A stretch of 64,000 bases of DNA from NCBI RefSeq assembly GCF_009746125.1, contig NZ_CP041352.1:2154436-2218435 (forward strand), in the 5' to 3' direction. The notes beneath the pieces were generated by a model. That model saw only the letters and a program-made list of their open reading frames with translations. It was not told where the DNA came from and made no database searches. The translations under genes and the position numbers were made by a program. Within the stretch, counting starts at the first letter, position 1; each line of letters opens with the position of its first letter. The stretch is from Casimicrobium huifangae. GTDB lineage: Bacteria > Pseudomonadota > Gammaproteobacteria > Burkholderiales > Casimicrobiaceae. This document shows, piece after piece, positions 102 to 7,481 of this stretch.

Positions 102-554
102 ATGAGCATTGTCGACAACAAAAAGGCTTTCTTCGATTATTTCATCGAAGACCGCTACGAGGCCGGGCTGGAGCTGGAAGGCTGGGAGGTCAAGGCCATC
201 CGCGCCGGCCGGGTGGGCATCAAGGAGGCCTACGTCCGCGTCATCCGCAGTCAGGTCTGGCTGGTCGGCGCCAATATCAGCCCGCTCAACAGCGCTTCCA
301 CCCACATACGTCCGGACGCCATCCGCATGCGTCGCTGCCTGCTGCACCGGGAAGAAATCAACAAACTGATCGGCAAGGTCAAGGAAAAGGGCTACACCCT
401 CATCCCGATCAACCTGCATTTCTCAAAGGGCCGCGTAAAACTTGAAATCGGCCTGGCCAAAGGCAAGAAAGACCACGACAAGCGCGCCGCGATCAAGGAT
501 CGGGAGAATCAGCGGGACGCGGCGGATGCGATGAAGAAGGCGGGTAGAGCGTAG
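102..554 (+). CDS. smpB: SsrA (tmRNA)-binding protein SmpB
   Basis: This 150-residue protein is the tmRNA partner in trans-translation: it binds the tRNA-like domain of SsrA and delivers it to stalled ribosomes. The family signature is clear: an N-terminal [28 protein letters not shown] block (residues 7-34), a central [16 protein letters not shown] segment, and a basic C-terminal tail rich in K/R/D that enters the mRNA channel. Length is normal for the family. The ATG at 102 (MSIVDNKK) is preferred over an in-frame ATG at 24, because the longer form would run into the divergent ratA coding sequence and adds residues the family lacks. Confidence 0.97.
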
Positions 555-756
555 CAAGTTTCCCCGGGCTCGCGAAATTGCTCACCCTACCTGTCCAGGT
601 GGGGAGCCTTACTGCGTTACCACGTAGGCTACGGTGATGCGTCTACAGCGGGTCCAACAGGTGAATCGGCAAAGGTCAGACTGCCGTTTCGGTGCATCGC
701 CAGATTCGCTATGCTCGTGGCTAGCACGTGAGGCGGAGCAGGGGGCCGCATGGGGC

Positions 757-2547
757 ATGCATACTGGTGACGATGTCGCGCTTCGTGTAGAACGGCTTAC
801 GGTGCTGTTTGCCGATCTCGTCGAGTCCTCGCAAATGCTGGCTGATGACGAAATTGCCGGTGTGAGGCGCATCGCCCGGTTGTTTGCTGACGTGACCGGC
901 GCCGCGGCTGATGGAGGTTCGGGCAGATTGCTTGAGCGTCGCGGTGATGGGCTCATATTTTTGTTCCGTCACGCCATCGACGCCGCCAACGCCGCGTCTG
1001 CGATTCACCGGACAGCCGCGAGCTTTGATGCGGTCAACGGCAGTGCGTTTGTGTTTCGGATTGGGTTGCACTGCGCAAACGTACTCGATCATGACGGCGT
1101 GCGGTTTGGCCTTGGCTTGTCAATCTGCTCCCGCATTGCCAGTCTGGCATTGCCCGGGCAATCGCTGGTCTCTACCGAGTGCCGAGATGAACTCGCTGGC
1201 TTTGCTCACCTGACGCTTGTGGACAAGGGGCGCTGCTATATCAAGGGGGCATCCGATCCGATACGTGTGTTTGAGCTGGCGAGGCGGCAGGGAGGCATGG
1301 CTGCAGGAAGCCTGCCGAAAAGTCAGGTTCAGACCTCGGTTACCCTGGCTGTGTTTCCGCTCAGTCATCTTAGCCTCGCGCCGGCAAATGAAAGTCAGAA
1401 TGGCGCGGCGGTCGGTGACGTTTACGCCGATCTTGCATTGCAGGCGTTCTCGCGGTGCACAGGCATCGAACTGATTTCCCGCCTTTCGTCCGCTGCAGCG
1501 GCGCGGGCGGTCCGATCCGGTGCGCAACTGACGACAGTCATTTCGGCTGACTATGTACTTTCCGGCACCTGGCAACAGCCAGCGGGCGATGAGTATCGTT
1601 TTGCAGTGGAGTTGATGAGTACGGTCGACGGCAGAGTGGTATGGCATGACAGCGCCCGCGCGACCGCCGTTGAATTGCTTGCCCCCGAGTCGCAATACTT
1701 TCTGCGCATCGTGTCCGAGGCAACCCACCGCATTGCGGGCCGAGAGCTCGAAACAAGCAGGACAGCGCCGCTTCCAACGGTACCGACGCACTCTCTGGTG
1801 CTTTCAAGTATCAGTCTTATGCACCGCCTCGGACGCGATGACTTTGACTCAGCCCTTTCGCTCATCGAGCGAGTTGCCGAACGGGCGCCGCGTCATGCGG
1901 TACCGCACGCCTGGCGCGCACGCTGGCATACGTTTCGCGTCGTACAGGGTTGGGCGCATCACGATCAGCGCGATCACGAACAGGCCAAGCGCGAGAGTGA
2001 AATGGCGCTGGCACTCGATGACGAGCTGTCGCTGGTGCATGCCGTCGCGGGCTCTGTCGCCATGAGTGTCAAGCGGGACTTGCCGGCCGCGTTGCGGCAC
2101 TACGAGCGCGCCTTGTCGATCAATCCGAGTGACTCGCTGGCATGGGCGTTGAAGGCAGCCGCACATGCTCTGGACGATGACGGAGCCGCGGCACTCGCTG
2201 CTGCTGATCGGGCATTGACGCTGTCGCCCCATGATCCGATGCGCTTTTTGCACGAATCGCTGGCCGCAAGCGCATGCTTGACGATGCATGATTTTGCCGG
2301 GGCACGCAATCGTGCCGAGGCTTCGATCCGAAGCAACCGTGCGCATTACTCGTCACTGCGGGTGGCGGCCATTGCCTGTGAATTGCTGGGCGATCATGGG
2401 GCGGCCGCACGCCATATCGACGAACTACGTCGGGAGCAGCCCCTGTACACGGTTGGTGCATTTCTGCGGGCAAGCCCCAAACCGGCAGCCTCTGACAATC
2501 GCAAGCTTTTTGCCGACGCTTTGCTTGCCGCCGGCTTGCCTGCCTAG
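757..2547 (+). CDS. Class III nucleotide cyclase-like protein with TolB-like and TPR regions
   Basis: About 596 residues from the ATG at 757; an in-frame start at 634 is also possible. The N-terminal 170 residues form a class III adenylate/guanylate cyclase homology domain. Both metal-site aspartates are recognisable (FADLVESS and ERRGDGLIFLF) and so is the arginine of SRIASLALPGQSLVS. The usual VN before that arginine reads LS, so catalytic activity is uncertain. A TolB-like/FlgO-like segment follows (ADLALQAFSRCTGIELISR, ADYVLSGTW), then TPR-type helices (PAALRHYERALSINPSDSLAW). No signal peptide or membrane segment is seen, so it is probably cytosolic. It is first in a four-gene unit, 39 nt upstream of the PAP2-like gene. 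It likely acts as a sensor or scaffold; the role is not known. Confidence 0.75.
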   Translation: MHTGDDVALRVERLTVLFADLVESSQMLADDEIAGVRRIARLFADVTGAAADGGSGRLLERRGDGLIFLFRHAIDAANAASAIHRTAASFDAVNGSAFVFRIGLHCANVLDHDGVRFGLGLSICSRIASLALPGQSLVSTECRDELAGFAHLTLVDKGRCYIKGASDPIRVFELARRQGGMAAGSLPKSQVQTSVTLAVFPLSHLSLAPANESQNGAAVGDVYADLALQAFSRCTGIELISRLSSAAAARAVRSGAQLTTVISADYVLSGTWQQPAGDEYRFAVELMSTVDGRVVWHDSARATAVELLAPESQYFLRIVSEATHRIAGRELETSRTAPLPTVPTHSLVLSSISLMHRLGRDDFDSALSLIERVAERAPRHAVPHAWRARWHTFRVVQGWAHHDQRDHEQAKRESEMALALDDELSLVHAVAGSVAMSVKRDLPAALRHYERALSINPSDSLAWALKAAAHALDDDGAAALAAADRALTLSPHDPMRFLHESLAASACLTMHDFAGARNRAEASIRSNRAHYSSLRVAAIACELLGDHGAAARHIDELRREQPLYTVGAFLRASPKPAASDNRKLFADALLAAGLPA

Positions 2548-2586
2548 CAGGCCAATTCTTCACTCACACTATTGCAAAGGGGAAAC

Positions 2587-3729
2587 ATGGCGAACTGGGA
2601 AGGCTGGGAAGGCTGGGAAGGATGGGAGGGGTGGGAAGGCTGGGAGGGCTGGGAAGGCTGGCGCTCACCACGGGGCGGCGGGTCGGGCGGGAATGTTGCC
2701 GCACTGTTGCGTGGACGCGAATTGACCCTTGGCGGGCAAATGGGGGCACAGTGGCGGTTGCGCCCTGGGCAGGTGCTGGGTCGAGCACCTGTGCCTGCGA
2801 CGGGGAAAGACCCGCGCAAGGCTCTGGGTAGCGCCGGCGGCATTCTGGAAGTGTCCCAGATTGCCAGAGCGCGAAGCATCATATTTGACCTCTGCACCGA
2901 CGTTGATTTTGATGTGCGTGGCGAGACGTTTGTACTGATGACACGGGCGTTCGACCGTGCAGGCGCCGCGCAAGCCATTTGCACGATTGCCCGGCCCAGT
3001 GATGCCAACTTCGCGGAGCAGGCGCGATTGGTTGAGGCCTGGGCCGTGTTGCGGCCTGAACGTGTTCCGGAAATACTCGATCAGATGGATGTGCCTATGG
3101 GGCTGTGGGCCAGCGTCATGGACTTGAATTCGACGACGACGCCACATACTCTGGCGCTGATTGACGTTTGCATCGGATTTGCAGCGCATGTGGTTCACCG
3201 CATCAAGCACTCACTGGGCACGGCCCGACCGGTCATGTTTAGTCCGTACATTCAACCAATTCGGCCCACGCCGCGGTTTGGTGCCCTGCCGTCCGGGCAC
3301 GCGACGGAGGCGTTCGTCGTGTCAGAGCTGCTGAAGAAGCTAATCGGCTGTCGTGACAGCGCTGACTCGGCGGCAAAAGTGCTTGATGCATACGCTGAAC
3401 GCATTGCGACCAATCGTGTCGTTGCCGGCTTTCATTTTCCAGTCGATAGCATGGCCGGCTGCATGCTCGGCACCTGTCTGATTGACTACGTGCAACGGCT
3501 GGCGACGCCTGACGCTACGAATTTTTCGCCGTATCAATTCGTTTACACAGGGGCGAATCCGGAATTCGATCCTGAAGTTTGGCGCCGTCCGCCAAAACCT
3601 TCCGATGCACGCGCTCAGCTCGGCGACATCGAGGGCAAATCGATTGTCGTCGCCGGACTCGGTTCTGATCACGCCAAAACATCCTCACTCAGCGCGCTTT
3701 GGGAAGCTGCCGCCAACGAGTGGCGTTGA
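2587..3729 (+). CDS. PAP2-superfamily (vanadium haloperoxidase-like) protein with N-terminal WEG repeats
   Basis: This 380-residue protein starts at the ATG at 2587, with an AAAGGGG ribosome site 4 nt upstream. An in-frame TTG at 2572 is less likely. After MAN it carries seven uninterrupted Trp-Glu-Gly triplets plus a closing Trp (residues 4-25), then a Gly/Arg-rich linker. The C-terminal two thirds contain the three PAP2/vanadium-haloperoxidase motifs in order: KHSLGTARP (K-x6-RP), LPSGHATEAF (PSGH), and NRVVAGFHFPVDSMAG (R-x5-H-x3-D). The phosphate- or vanadate-binding site therefore looks intact. No signal peptide or obvious transmembrane helices are seen, unlike membrane PAP2 lipid phosphatases, which favours the soluble haloperoxidase-like branch. 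It sits between the cyclase-like and peptidase genes. Its substrate is unknown. Confidence 0.75.
   Translation: MANWEGWEGWEGWEGWEGWEGWEGWRSPRGGGSGGNVAALLRGRELTLGGQMGAQWRLRPGQVLGRAPVPATGKDPRKALGSAGGILEVSQIARARSIIFDLCTDVDFDVRGETFVLMTRAFDRAGAAQAICTIARPSDANFAEQARLVEAWAVLRPERVPEILDQMDVPMGLWASVMDLNSTTTPHTLALIDVCIGFAAHVVHRIKHSLGTARPVMFSPYIQPIRPTPRFGALPSGHATEAFVVSELLKKLIGCRDSADSAAKVLDAYAERIATNRVVAGFHFPVDSMAGCMLGTCLIDYVQRLATPDATNFSPYQFVYTGANPEFDPEVWRRPPKPSDARAQLGDIEGKSIVVAGLGSDHAKTSSLSALWEAAANEWR
2596..2661 (+). repeat. Seven 9-bp tandem repeats encoding Trp-Glu-Gly
   Basis: Seven consecutive 9-nt units (TGG GAR GGN) are followed by one more TGG. Units differ only at third codon positions (GAA/GAG; GGC/GGA/GGG), so the peptide is perfectly regular while the DNA is not. 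The repeat lies at the very N-terminus of the PAP2-like protein. Confidence 0.95.
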
Positions 3730-3741
3730 CGAGGCAGAGTC

Positions 3742-5562
3742 ATGTCGCATACACAAGGACAACACATCGCCTGGACCGTGCCTGAAGGTCGTGACAACGA
3801 CTGCTGGGATCCTTATTTTGTCTGGGCTTTGACAACAGGCAGATTGCCTGAAGATGACGATCGCCCATATCTGGTGCAAAGAATCAGCAATGGCGGCGAA
3901 ACTGCTTTCTCCACTGAGATGGCGCGACTCAGTGACGGGAACCCTGGCTTCGTTGACGAGAAAAACGTAGTGCGCTGGCAACTCGGCGCGCCACGCAATG
4001 CGTCCTACATCAATTTGAGTGATTACGCTGATGTCGAGGTGAGACCAACGCATACCGACGTCATCGCCGCAGTTCTCGACGACGGATGCCCGCTATTGAA
4101 CAAGGCGTTTCGGGATGCCGACGGTCGCTGCCGGGTTCGCTGGCTCTGGCACCAGGGCAAGACGGGGGCACGCCGTCCGGGTGGGGCAGAAGCCGGAAAC
4201 CGCTGGTGGTATCAGCCGTATATGACGCTTCCGCCTGGACAAACGCCAGCCTATGGCGCGGAGCTCTCCCCGGCCGAGGTGGACCAGCTTTCTTCGCGGA
4301 TCACGCTCGGAGGCGACGCCGTCGAGTGTGAGTCTTACCGCGCTCTGCGGTATCTGGAAACGCCAGAAAAGCGACGGCACGGCGCCAGTGTCATGACTCA
4401 GGTGCTCAATGCCTATCCACCGTTCGGCGGTTCGGGCCAGCGCATGTCCGAGCCGGCATCGGATTGGCCGCTCATCTTTGTCCAGTTTCCGGAAAACGAG
4501 TTGAAAGACACATCGGGAGGCTGGCTAGGGGTTCGTGTTCTTGATGGCCTCCACTACATCATCGACAGGGCGCGACGAGGCGGCTTTCGTCGGAAATCCT
4601 TGCTTGACAATGAGAAGGATAGTGCCCCCATTCCCGTTGTCGCCACATTGAGTTACGGTGGCCTTGCTGGCGCGCACGATGGTGAAAGCCTGCTTGAGGA
4701 AGCGCTCAATGACTTGCAGGATCGCAACCCGCACCTGACGCTTGTGATGGCTGCGGGTAATGCGTATGGTCGTGCAGTCCACGCATCCGCCGCACCGTCA
4801 GCATCGGGGAAAGTGACATTTGAGCTTTTCATTCCGCCAGACAACCCGAACACAGTGTTCGTCGAGTTTTGGCTTCCGCAAGAGGCCGATCTGTCGCGCG
4901 TCAGGTTTGAAATCAATGGGCCGTGTGGCGCGAGCCTCGGGCAGACAGGTAGCGGGTGCACGATTGATGCTCGCAATGTCTGTTCGCTGATTGCCGTTCG
5001 AAACGCGCCGCAAGGGCGCAGTGGCGCGATGGTGCTTGTGTCATTCAACCCGACGCGAATTGGGGGCAAGGGGGCGCATACTGTTGCCGGCGTGTGGCAG
5101 GTTGCCATTGAAGCCGGTACCGTCGGCGTGATCAACGGCTGGATCGAGCGCGACGACATGAATGGCGGTCTCGCGCGCGCCCAGCAAGCGCGATTCCTCG
5201 GCGAACATGTTCGTGAGGACATGAACTTGTCGAGCCCGGCAAATGCGCAGCACACCCGGCGATTCGTTGTTGGCAGTGTGATTGCAAGCGATGGCTCAGT
5301 CAGCGGTTATTCTGCCTCGGGGCCATCGTCAGCGACATTCGCAGCCCGCATGGGACCTGACCTCTCGGCGATTGGAGACGCCGCGCGCACGTTGCCAGGC
5401 ATCGTTTGCGACGGTGTGCGGAGCGGCGAGCGATATCGGGCTGCTGGCACCAGTGTCGCCGCTGGCGCTGCTGCGCACTCGCTGATCATCGAGATGCAGC
5501 GGCGACGGCCTGGAAACTTTGCGCCCGCCGCCCCGGATCTGCGTCGTGGAGTACGCAAGTGA
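3742..5562 (+). CDS. S8 family (subtilisin-like) serine peptidase
   Basis: A 606-residue subtilase. The catalytic triad and oxyanion residue can be placed: Asp in AAVLDDGCP (about residue 113), His in KRRHGASVM (about 212), the oxyanion Asn in MAAGNAYG (about 338) and Ser in AAGTSVAAGAAA (about 573). About 230 residues, including a probable beta-rich insert, lie between the Asn and Ser motifs. There is no signal peptide and no recognisable I9 propeptide, so a cytosolic enzyme or one released by other means is likely. The start is 12 nt after the PAP2-like gene and the stop is 6 nt before the LuxR-type gene, so the four genes are probably one transcript. Substrate unknown; proteins of the same operon are candidates. 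Confidence 0.88.
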   Translation: MSHTQGQHIAWTVPEGRDNDCWDPYFVWALTTGRLPEDDDRPYLVQRISNGGETAFSTEMARLSDGNPGFVDEKNVVRWQLGAPRNASYINLSDYADVEVRPTHTDVIAAVLDDGCPLLNKAFRDADGRCRVRWLWHQGKTGARRPGGAEAGNRWWYQPYMTLPPGQTPAYGAELSPAEVDQLSSRITLGGDAVECESYRALRYLETPEKRRHGASVMTQVLNAYPPFGGSGQRMSEPASDWPLIFVQFPENELKDTSGGWLGVRVLDGLHYIIDRARRGGFRRKSLLDNEKDSAPIPVVATLSYGGLAGAHDGESLLEEALNDLQDRNPHLTLVMAAGNAYGRAVHASAAPSASGKVTFELFIPPDNPNTVFVEFWLPQEADLSRVRFEINGPCGASLGQTGSGCTIDARNVCSLIAVRNAPQGRSGAMVLVSFNPTRIGGKGAHTVAGVWQVAIEAGTVGVINGWIERDDMNGGLARAQQARFLGEHVREDMNLSSPANAQHTRRFVVGSVIASDGSVSGYSASGPSSATFAARMGPDLSAIGDAARTLPGIVCDGVRSGERYRAAGTSVAAGAAAHSLIIEMQRRRPGNFAPAAPDLRRGVRK

Positions 5563-5568
5563 ACGGCA

Positions 5569-6681
5569 ATGACTAGAGCGAATCCAGCAAGTATCGACCC
5601 GCCTGGCGCGAGCGACGCGTCCAGCCTGCGGCGCGCCCGAGTCACGGTTCGGCAGCTTTGTTCACTGCGGCTCCCTGCGCCAGTGCTCTTGCCGTCGCTA
5701 CTGCCCGCAGTGCGTGCGGTCGTGCGTTCGTCCCATGCTGCCTTCTTTTACGCCGATGCGGCGGGCAACATGACCAATATGTATGCCGAGCGAATGTTGC
5801 CCCCCGAGGCAATGGCTAGATACTACGAGCAGTACTACCGCGCCGATTCTTCGGCGTTTACCAAGTCATACCTGAGTTTGGTCGCCGCAAGCGACCCAGT
5901 CTCCTACCGAACTGTCGGTCCAGTGGAACGAAGCAGCGACTACTTCCGCGACGTACTGTCACCGCTTGATGTTGGACACATCATGTACGGCATCGTACGT
6001 GCGCAGGCGAACGGCCGCGAGCCGATCGGTCAGCTGAGTTTGTATCGCCCGGAAACGGACATACCGTTCAGCCCGGCGGATGCCGAGGCGCTGCGTGATG
6101 TTTTGCATTACCTGGGCCGTGCGCTCTCTGCCGCACCGTTTGCCCCTGTCTCAGCGTCGGCCGAGCAGACGGCGGAAGAAGCGATGGCGGTGCTTGATGA
6201 GTCGGGCACCACGCTATTTGCCGATGAAGGCTGGTTGCGGCTGGTTCGCCTCGCTCGAGGTGAGCCAATATCACCGGTGCAGGCGGCCGCAGAACCAAAA
6301 GCGCTGCGGGAGTTTCTGCACGGCGTGGTCAAGGCGACTTCGTCCGCCAGGAACGCGTTGTACTCCGTGGACTCTCCGTGGGGACGATTCGCGTTTCGCC
6401 ATCACCTGCTCGAGGGCGTGTCTGGGCAGCGGGCAACTGCGCTGGTTCTCTCGCGCCTGGCAGCGGAACCCGTGCGGCTTACCGAAGGAGCAGCACGTCT
6501 GCAGCTGTCGGCCCAGCAACGCGAAGTGGCTTTGATGATTGCGCTCGGGCAAACCAATGCCGAGATCGCCGGGAAGCTTGGTGTATCGGTCAATACGGCG
6601 GGTTACCACGTCAAGCAGGTGTTCGCGAAACTCGACGTGCATGACCGCTCGGAGGTGGCAGCGGTTCTACGGCGCGCGTGA
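5569..6681 (+). CDS. LuxR-type HTH transcriptional regulator
   Basis: A 370-residue protein ending in a typical LuxR/GerE DNA-binding domain (LSAQQREVALMIALGQTNAEIAGKLGVSVNTAGYHVKQVFAKLDVHDRSEVAAVL, about residues 311-366). The first 200 residues resemble the GAF/PAS-like N-terminal half of stand-alone LuxR regulators, with no receiver-domain phosphorylation motif and no clear acyl-homoserine-lactone pocket. It begins 6 nt after the S8 peptidase gene, so it is probably the regulator encoded within this operon. The ligand is unknown. Confidence 0.85.
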   Translation: MTRANPASIDPPGASDASSLRRARVTVRQLCSLRLPAPVLLPSLLPAVRAVVRSSHAAFFYADAAGNMTNMYAERMLPPEAMARYYEQYYRADSSAFTKSYLSLVAASDPVSYRTVGPVERSSDYFRDVLSPLDVGHIMYGIVRAQANGREPIGQLSLYRPETDIPFSPADAEALRDVLHYLGRALSAAPFAPVSASAEQTAEEAMAVLDESGTTLFADEGWLRLVRLARGEPISPVQAAAEPKALREFLHGVVKATSSARNALYSVDSPWGRFAFRHHLLEGVSGQRATALVLSRLAAEPVRLTEGAARLQLSAQQREVALMIALGQTNAEIAGKLGVSVNTAGYHVKQVFAKLDVHDRSEVAAVLRRA

Positions 6682-6749
6682 CGGGGTGCTTTCGCGCGTG
6701 GCCGACGCAGCAAGCGGTGATGCGCTGGCACTGTTTGCTCGGCGATCCG

Positions 6750-7481
6750 TCAGCTGCCGCTGGCTGCTTTGGCAAGTGTCTCGAAGTGGGAATAGATCGC
6801 ATCGGCCAGTTTCTGGCTCTCCGTCAGTCGATTCGCCATCTGCGCCGCCATCACGCTCGCGGTCTGCACGTAAGGCTCGCCCGGCAAGCGCGCGAGTTCG
6901 CGTTGCGATGCGCTGAGCCACAGCGCGTGCTTGGCGGCGTCGATCTCGACGTGGAATTGCATGGCCAGCAAGGTGTCGATGGCGAACGCCTGTTGGGGGC
7001 AGGCATCGCTGCTGCCGATGAGTTCGGCAGCGGCGGGGACGGCGAACGACTCGTAGTGCCACTGGATGACGGTTGGCGTGCTGCCGGCGAATTCTCCGAA
7101 CCACGCGCGGGCGGCTGCGGAGTCAGTCGTCTGCATCGGCCACCAGCCGATTTCGATGTTGGGCGACGCGCCAACCGTTGCACCCAGTGCTTTGGCGATG
7201 AGCTGGCCGCCGAGACAATGGCCGATGACCGGTTTGCCAGCGGTACGCGCTTCACGGATAAGCACTTCGGCCTGTCGCAACGACGGCAGGTCGTCGTTGA
7301 CACTCATGACGCCACCGAGGATCGCCAGGCCCGCGTAATCAGCCAATGACGCCGGCGCCTCGTCGCCGTGCTCAAAATCAAAAACGTCGAATGCAATGTT
7401 GCGCTGCCGCAGCCATGTGGCAAGGTAGGCGGGGCCGTCGTCGGTGTTGTTCTGCAGAATGGCGATACGCATCTTCGGCAT
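6750..7481 (-). CDS. Class I glutamine amidotransferase-like protein (GMP synthase amidotransferase-type)
   Basis: A 243-residue, single-domain protein of the class I (triad) amidotransferase fold. The nucleophile elbow is present as GHCLGGQLIAKALG (Cys about residue 90) and the later His-x-Glu as FHVEID. A second conserved block (IQWHYESFAVPAAAELIGSS) is typical of free-standing GMP-synthase-like amidotransferases such as the YfeJ/YLR126C group. No synthetase partner is nearby, so it may act as a stand-alone glutamine or gamma-glutamyl hydrolase. It converges on the LuxR-type gene and diverges from the LysR regulator. Confidence 0.8.
   Translation of the reverse strand: MPKMRIAILQNNTDDGPAYLATWLRQRNIAFDVFDFEHGDEAPASLADYAGLAILGGVMSVNDDLPSLRQAEVLIREARTAGKPVIGHCLGGQLIAKALGATVGASPNIEIGWWPMQTTDSAAARAWFGEFAGSTPTVIQWHYESFAVPAAAELIGSSDACPQQAFAIDTLLAMQFHVEIDAAKHALWLSASQRELARLPGEPYVQTASVMAAQMANRLTESQKLADAIYSHFETLAKAASGS

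Follow-up and report, generated by a model that had tools for sequence, protein, structure and literature searches.

A proteobacterial gene cassette of a TPR regulator, a PAP2-fold enzyme with an N-terminal tandem array and an S8 protease, and the covariation of array unit and TPR helices

In the RRNPP systems (Rap, NprR, PlcR, PrgX and AimR), a tetratricopeptide repeat (TPR) receptor, often with a DNA-binding output, is encoded beside the gene of a protein which carries a variable short peptide. According to the part of PMC10075063 cited here, a separate propeptide, small and usually secreted, is the source of the peptide, and receptors are 250-500 residues long. A related arrangement was found in a 64,000-nucleotide stretch of the Casimicrobium huifangae genome (contig NZ_CP041352.1; the whole stretch is called the window). 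There, the gene of a TPR regulator (gene 1), the gene of a PAP2-fold enzyme whose N-terminus is a tandem array of the tripeptide WEG, and the gene of an S8 protease form a conserved cassette, which is followed in the window by a LuxR-type gene. As in the RRNPP systems, the TPR receptor gene (TPRs by Pfam and in the AlphaFold2 (AF2) model) lies beside the gene of the peptide, upstream of it in most loci. In comparison with what that source describes, the array is fused to an enzyme as the N-terminus of a 380-residue protein without a hydrophobic signal, the window's putative receptor is longer, at 596 residues, and the gene set includes a protease.

Designed repeat proteins recognise peptides built of tripeptide repeats by superhelical matching, the targets in the cited part of PMC10115654 being polyproline-II tripeptides. 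The cassette likewise would have a helical repeat protein facing a tandem tripeptide; whereas, in its case the inferred pairing is a natural one and proline occurs in a single unit, GGPV. The cassette enzyme has the fold and the active-site motifs in common with the PAP2 superfamily (class A acid phosphatases and vanadium haloperoxidases) and differs from it in the N-terminal array, in the lack of a visible signal peptide and in its dedicated TPR regulator and S8 protease. The best solved relatives of the S8 profile are the CspB-type subtilases, which act in clostridial spore germination, whereas the cassette protease belongs to a proteobacterial gene set. The family TIGR04510 (putative peptide modification system cyclase) matches gene 1 weakly (E 5e-5, 21.9 bits), far below its curated cut-off of 400, and gene 1 is set apart from its members by this score. 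No published description of the gene set or of the arrays was found in the open-licence literature, in agreement with the first-pass annotation, which knew of no described system of such composition.

Conservation of the three-gene cassette

The GTDB genomes were scanned with a PAP2 alignment, which gave at least 503 confirmed relatives, and the best 80 loci were kept, chosen by PAP2 similarity alone. Gene 1, PAP2 and S8 were all present in 74 of these 80 loci, and as the loci had been picked on PAP2 only, the conservation is far beyond chance. The neighbourhood is hence a real unit, as had been proposed from the window alone, and not a chance cluster. Among the six loci without the full set, the contig ends at the cassette in L041, L051, L059, L062 and L112, and L090 has no gene-1 match; in L113, one of the 74 full loci, gene 1 lies on the opposite strand. 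A further 100 loci, mainly top-ranked ones, were added (54 of 95 places in the family of genome G599, 40 of 51 in the family of genome G695 and 6 from a sample across the phylum).

Of the 192 loci examined, which come from Alpha-, Beta- and Gammaproteobacteria, 187 have S8 and 181 have gene 1; the peptidase and the repeat-bearing enzyme, whose joint travel the first-pass annotation had put forward for checking, do travel together. Gene 1 precedes the enzyme gene on the same strand in 157 loci and lies divergently upstream of it in 18; in 6 it has another placement, and in 11 no gene 1 was found. The enzyme profile matches 19 of 397 genomes sampled across the phylum; in the families of G599 and G695 it matches 76 of 345 and 49 of 349 genomes, respectively, and some genomes have 2-3 copies. 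In 149 related genomes, PAP2 matches at E 1e-3 or better occur in 32, and those of the window and 11 others are strong (E <= 5.5e-27). Plasmid-borne copies of the cassette also exist (21 Phaeobacter plasmids, 10 of them inspected). In the window's own genome there is no second cassette enzyme, one further match (3.5e-8) spanning part of the PAP2 core.

Tandem arrays and their covariation with the TPR solenoid

The WEG repeat noted by the first-pass annotation is not peculiar to one protein: such arrays mark the whole family, whose other members have other units. Among 179 loci that differ in their enzyme core, 171 have a tandem array at the enzyme N-terminus, and about 90 different units occur, such as WEG, SGW, NGF, GGA, TGV and QG. 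The period is 3 residues in 145 arrays, 4 in 24 and 6 and 2 in one each, the medians are 9 copies and 28 residues, and glycine is found in the unit of 143 of the 171. The array starts within 12 residues of a methionine in 154 of 165 proteins and is predicted to be disordered. The best repeat run in shuffled N-termini has a mean of 2.5 and a maximum of 9, as compared with an observed median of 25 and a value of 6 for the weakest called array. Comparable runs are absent from gene 1 (one exception, L039, in 169) and from S8 (one exception in 175, L195, whose array has the unit QGS, shared with L211). All 8 proteins of the window genus with a complete N-terminus carry an array (WEG, SGW, EGH, TGA twice, NGA, NGF and GTNG). 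Among the first 90 proteins, 87 had arrays, of 51 units, and the remaining L041, L059 and L062 lie at contig starts. Six of the eight proteins without a called array in the full set comprise L023, L029, L059 and L062, which are cut by contig ends, L041 with poly-G at a contig start, and L203 with a degenerate repeat. Extreme cases are QG x17 (L212), the hexamer YGGQGA (L134), GHT x19 (L165) and GNQ x19 (L168). Units may differ between close relatives, the enzyme cores of L037 (SGV) and L046 (TGL) being 89% identical, and array length varies between relatives by whole-unit insertions and deletions. In the three weaker PAP2 relatives outside the cassette which were checked (L032-L034), no array was found, and an exact DNA pattern of two units gave no further WEG array in the window's genome.

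Selection acts on the array peptide, because the amino acids are perfectly periodic and adjacent codons are more varied than chance. The codon identity of adjacent units was 0.280 (2122 comparisons in 86 arrays) as compared with 0.344 for within-column permutation (z -7.2) and 0.373 for the loci's own codon usage (z -7.8); both z values overstate independence, as the loci are related. Raised adjacent codon identity (p < 0.05) was seen in 3 of the 86 arrays, and both serine codon boxes are used in 10 of 23 serine-containing arrays. Moreover, the NSF array of the 10 inspected Phaeobacter plasmids, from three species, differs only in whole units (5-7) and at synonymous sites. Two other roles were considered for the arrays and set aside: phase variation by frameshift is ruled out as units of 6, 9, 12 or 18 nt preserve the frame, and a self-modified aromatic precursor was rejected by inference, the GGA, GGV and QG arrays leaving little to modify.

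Of the 171 loci with an array, 161 entered the tests of covariation with the unit (all but L195 and those without gene 1 or S8), with matched controls for 30 or 16 units. Loci with a common unit were found to resemble each other in the C-terminal TPRs of gene 1 (the last ~125 residues) more than the matched controls do, chiefly in the A helices. Unit sharing was related to similarity of these last TPRs with a partial r of 0.276 on controlling PAP2, S8, FlgO and N-terminal identity, the maximum of 500 permutations being 0.133. The same test gave 0.056 (p 0.11) for the region TPRa, 0.070 (p 0.05) for the FlgO region, 0.078 (p 0.02) for the N-terminal domain and 0.058 (p 0.05) for PAP2, and the protease had no excess covariation with the unit (S8 partial r -0.198; distant-pair excess 0.006). 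In pairs with enzyme identity below 0.5 and with GGA left out, the excess in the last TPRs was 0.058 (null standard deviation 0.008).

Per residue, the mean z of the association was 1.7-2.8 for A helices 3-6 and the last helix, 0.5-1.4 for B helices 3-6 and -0.11 for FlgO, despite which single FlgO columns score high. With matched controls (30 units, no GGA), the excess was +0.087 in A helices 3-6 (confidence interval (CI) 0.053-0.119), +0.037 in B helices (CI -0.002-0.081) and +0.012 in FlgO, and the A minus B difference was 0.049 (CI 0.013-0.088), positive in 20 of 30 units. In TPR solenoids generally, it is the A helices that face the inner groove. Further, in different-unit pairs among the Kiloniella loci and one related metagenome-assembled genome, the identity was 0.73-0.99 in the N-terminal domain, ~0.9 in FlgO and 0.66-0.76 in the TPRs, and a same-unit pair of the Kiloniella type had a TPR identity of 0.98.

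Gene products of the window and neighbouring genes

The four plus-strand genes reported earlier were recovered with gaps of 39, 12 and 6 nt (Table 1). No internal promoter stands out, as had been noted, because a sigma-70-type consensus scan of positions 500-6900 gave 1 site against a shuffle mean of 1.4. The absence of a clear hydrophobic signal or membrane segment from the four proteins was likewise borne out by hydropathy, which is not a trained predictor, and the PAP2 and S8 active-site motifs described as intact consist of residues that are near-invariant in the family alignments.

Table 1. Positions of the cassette genes and their features in the window
Feature	Coordinates	Strand	Description	Basis
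Gene 1	757..2547	+	Predicted regulator: cyclase-like N-terminal domain, FlgO/TolB-like middle, TPR solenoid	Pfam, NCBIfam, AF2, Foldseek
Class III cyclase-like domain, gene 1	784..1284	+		Sequence motifs, AF2
TPR solenoid, gene 1	1780..2529	+	Helices at residues 342-591	AF2, covariation
PAP2-fold enzyme	2587..3729	+	Predicted acid phosphatase/vanadium peroxidase superfamily, soluble	Pfam PAP2, PDB profile/fold matches, active site
Tandem WEG array	2596..2661	+	7.3 copies, 3 residues past enzyme start	Repeat detection
S8 subtilase (predicted)	3742..5562	+	D113/H213/N340/S571	Family alignment, family profile
LuxR-type regulator	5569..6681	+	Genus-level cassette partner	Pfam GerE, co-occurrence

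In the window product of gene 1, one TPR model is just above the Pfam cut-off and the class III cyclase is sub-threshold (E 0.03). Its cyclase homology domain and TPR parts are confident in the AF2 model, which matches mycobacterial adenylyl cyclases and consensus TPR structures in the PDB (Foldseek). Full gene-1 open reading frames elsewhere have at least 546 residues (start sites unrefined). The description of gene 1 as cyclase-like stands for the window domain; family-wide, only the FlgO/TolB-like region and the TPR solenoid are constant, and three kinds of N-terminal domain occur. Sorted by motif only, the 77 matches comprise 42 cyclase-like, 19 CadC-type winged helix-turn-helix and 12 SARP-type winged helix-turn-helix domains and 4 unassigned ones; L113, tallied as CadC, looks SARP-like. 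Pfam Trans_reg_C was confirmed in gene 1 of L100 and L071. The window domain keeps D20, D64 and R126, and K60, D115 and N122 of many relatives are replaced; all six are presumably metal, base-binding or transition-state positions. Cyclase activity of the window protein thus appears doubtful, because several residues common in relatives are missing.

The enzyme scores 40.8 bits with Pfam PAP2 (cut-off 27.2). K207, R214, H238, R277 and H283 were each found in 81 of 81 aligned proteins and S236 in 73, and in the PDB its profile and model match class A acid phosphatases best and vanadium peroxidases less well. It is assigned to the PAP2 superfamily on this score and the intact active site. The window S8 protein has no Pfam match of its own; 7 of 11 aligned family members match Peptidase_S8 and the family profile matches the CspB-type subtilases in the PDB (best E 5.5e-23). 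With D113 in 77 of 78 proteins, H213 in 78 of 78, N340 in 77 of 77 and S571 in 76 of 76, the Asp-His-Ser triad and the oxyanion Asn together with the subtilase profile identify it by sequence as an S8 subtilase.

The fourth product has a LuxR-type helix-turn-helix above the Pfam cut-off. Its inclusion in the unit holds for the window genus; outside the genus it is not a core member, with a match in 3 of 80 loci, one of them weak and upstream. Among the 17 genomes of the genus, 10 have the enzyme and 12 have LuxR; LuxR accompanies the cassette in every one of the 10 and occurs in 2 of the 7 genomes without it (G009 and G015). The order gene 1, PAP2, S8, LuxR is retained in all 7 same-genus loci whose contig spans the cassette, and in L024, from another family, the first three genes are together and LuxR is not adjacent. 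Within the genus LuxR is 63-80% identical to that of the window, and the other three products about 22-46%. A second stretch in L031 (17623-17814), near a glutamine-amidotransferase-like gene, matches the last 64 LuxR residues at 91% and is perhaps a remnant copy.

Other neighbours were also recorded. A Crp/Fnr-type gene is near the cassette in 15 of 80 loci (e.g. L085, L087, L094, L099, L101, L066, L114 and L115), mostly just downstream and convergent; the L099 Crp protein carries a cyclic-nucleotide-binding domain, which may fit a cyclase-like gene 1. A PAS-LuxR-like family is near the cassette in 14 of 80. In the Rhodobacteraceae-type loci L038, L071, L073, L075, L086, L089, L092 and L104, an extra upstream gene ends at the start of gene 1; the L104 product of the gene preceding gene 1 and the product of the minus-strand neighbour in L089 had no Pfam match. 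Six Burkholderiales-type loci (L051, L058, L068, L079, L093 and L115) have a gene family directly upstream of gene 1, the L068 product matching Peptidase M48. In L152, L155, L157, L162, L164, L168 and L209-L222, gene 1, and sometimes S8 too, is oriented opposite to the enzyme gene, with units such as GNQ, NAE, GKM, EAV and QG.

Proposed recognition device and competing explanations

An intracellular signalling device, one of the possibilities raised at first, is the best reading. Specifically, we propose, with a probability of about one half, that the cassette is a cytoplasmic recognition-and-switch device in which an array tag is read by a TPR groove. The N-terminal array of the PAP2 enzyme would be a protein tag, and the C-terminal TPR groove of the regulator would bind it, the repeated helices facing the repeated peptide and the groove of each lineage suiting its own unit. 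Binding of the tag may link the state of the enzyme to the regulator's output domain, whether that is DNA-binding or cyclase-like. The S8 protease, related to precursor-activating proteases, could end or reset the contact by cutting off the tag; that the peptidase acts on the repeat-bearing enzyme, its putative substrate, is plausible, as had been suggested. From the covariation, we hold with moderate confidence that the groove reads the array; physical binding, the effect on enzyme and output, and the role of the protease are our inference.

A number of results weigh against this proposal. Distant pairs (no GGA) show an excess also in FlgO (0.043) and TPRa (0.033), and since FlgO is affected too, relatedness is not fully removed. 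In close pairs alone (no GGA), the TPR excess of 0.057 has p 0.09, and in distant pairs (16 units) the A minus B difference of 0.057 has a CI (-0.004-0.127) which spans 0. Among independent closest pairs (43, of which 25 share the unit and 18 do not), the TPR effect has p 0.009 against PAP2 and p 0.21 against FlgO. Nearest neighbours chosen by the last TPRs and by the enzyme core give the right unit equally often (63 of 110 each). The sole other WEG locus, L213, has a last-TPR identity of 0.16 to the window, below the background of 0.34. In the search for a size match between unit and groove, no column stays significant over 394 tests, and AF2 leaves the array, when joined to gene 1, disordered and undocked (pLDDT 25-32). 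Two natural variants, L201 and L205, have an array-less enzyme with all three cassette genes complete. Moreover, the Kiloniella pairs diverge in a single block which spans the TPR end and the enzyme N-terminus, and the TPR end adjoins the array in most loci, the loci with a divergent gene 1 (18 of the 179) being an exception, so exchange of linked segments contributes. The interleaved pattern of A and B helices is hard to explain from linkage alone.

This pattern also bears on the rather unlikely case of homotypic assembly, in which the arrays would stick enzyme molecules together in a filament or condensate and the TPR covariation would be mostly linkage and relatedness. The low-complexity, Gly-rich and predictedly disordered repeats, the free variation of array length between relatives and the adjoining TPR end and array fit such assembly; whereas, the contrast of A over B helices inside the same TPRs and the presence of a specific TPR regulator nearly everywhere speak against it. 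Tandem peptide precursors are known, as in the yeast alpha-factor, and S8 could cut the array into many lineage-specific peptides sensed by the gene-1 TPRs, as in RRNPP receptors. Identical repeated units beside a protease, a TPR regulator with DNA-binding output in some loci and the covariation of the TPRs with the unit are consistent with such a signal precursor, which is nevertheless an unlikely one: hydropathy shows no signal peptide in the window enzyme, the array forms one protein with an intact, conserved enzyme, the protease has no covariation with the unit, and many genera have units as plain as GGA.

An anti-phage or self-limiting defence system, in which the regulator senses infection and the protease frees a toxic phosphatase or peroxidase, had been raised for the window and is improbable. 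Its patchy distribution and plasmid copies would agree with defence, but the cassette has a fixed position beside LuxR in the window genus and PADLOC gives nothing beyond weak partial matches (PycC at 2e-4 over 77 residues of gene 1, CARF3 on the LuxR helix-turn-helix), with no full-length match to Pycsar or other systems. The whole-unit indels, and a few arrays such as L099, L064 and L113 which are more repetitive in DNA than chance, might be taken as a functionless minisatellite arising from replication slippage. This neutral origin is contradicted by the codon statistics, adjacent codons being less alike than under random synonymous choice, by the near-fixed place of the array after the start codon and by the occurrence of arrays in 171 of 179 loci, and is thus very improbable.

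In the arrays, the peptide is kept exactly periodic by selection while its DNA is kept non-repetitive. The presence of a lineage-specific motif and a putative TPR groove which seems to change along with it suggests an undescribed protein-tag recognition system. More tentatively, a natural code may be envisaged in which TPR grooves read tandem tripeptide tags, and unit and groove diverge together and so insulate the enzyme-regulator pair of each lineage or paralogue. If true, this would be a natural counterpart of designed superhelical matching, and a TPR-peptide device in Proteobacteria, whereas such receptors are tied to Firmicutes in the cited part of PMC10075063. About 90 short tags would then stand side by side with candidate helical-repeat readers in many bacteria, and the rules of modular peptide recognition would be directly testable.

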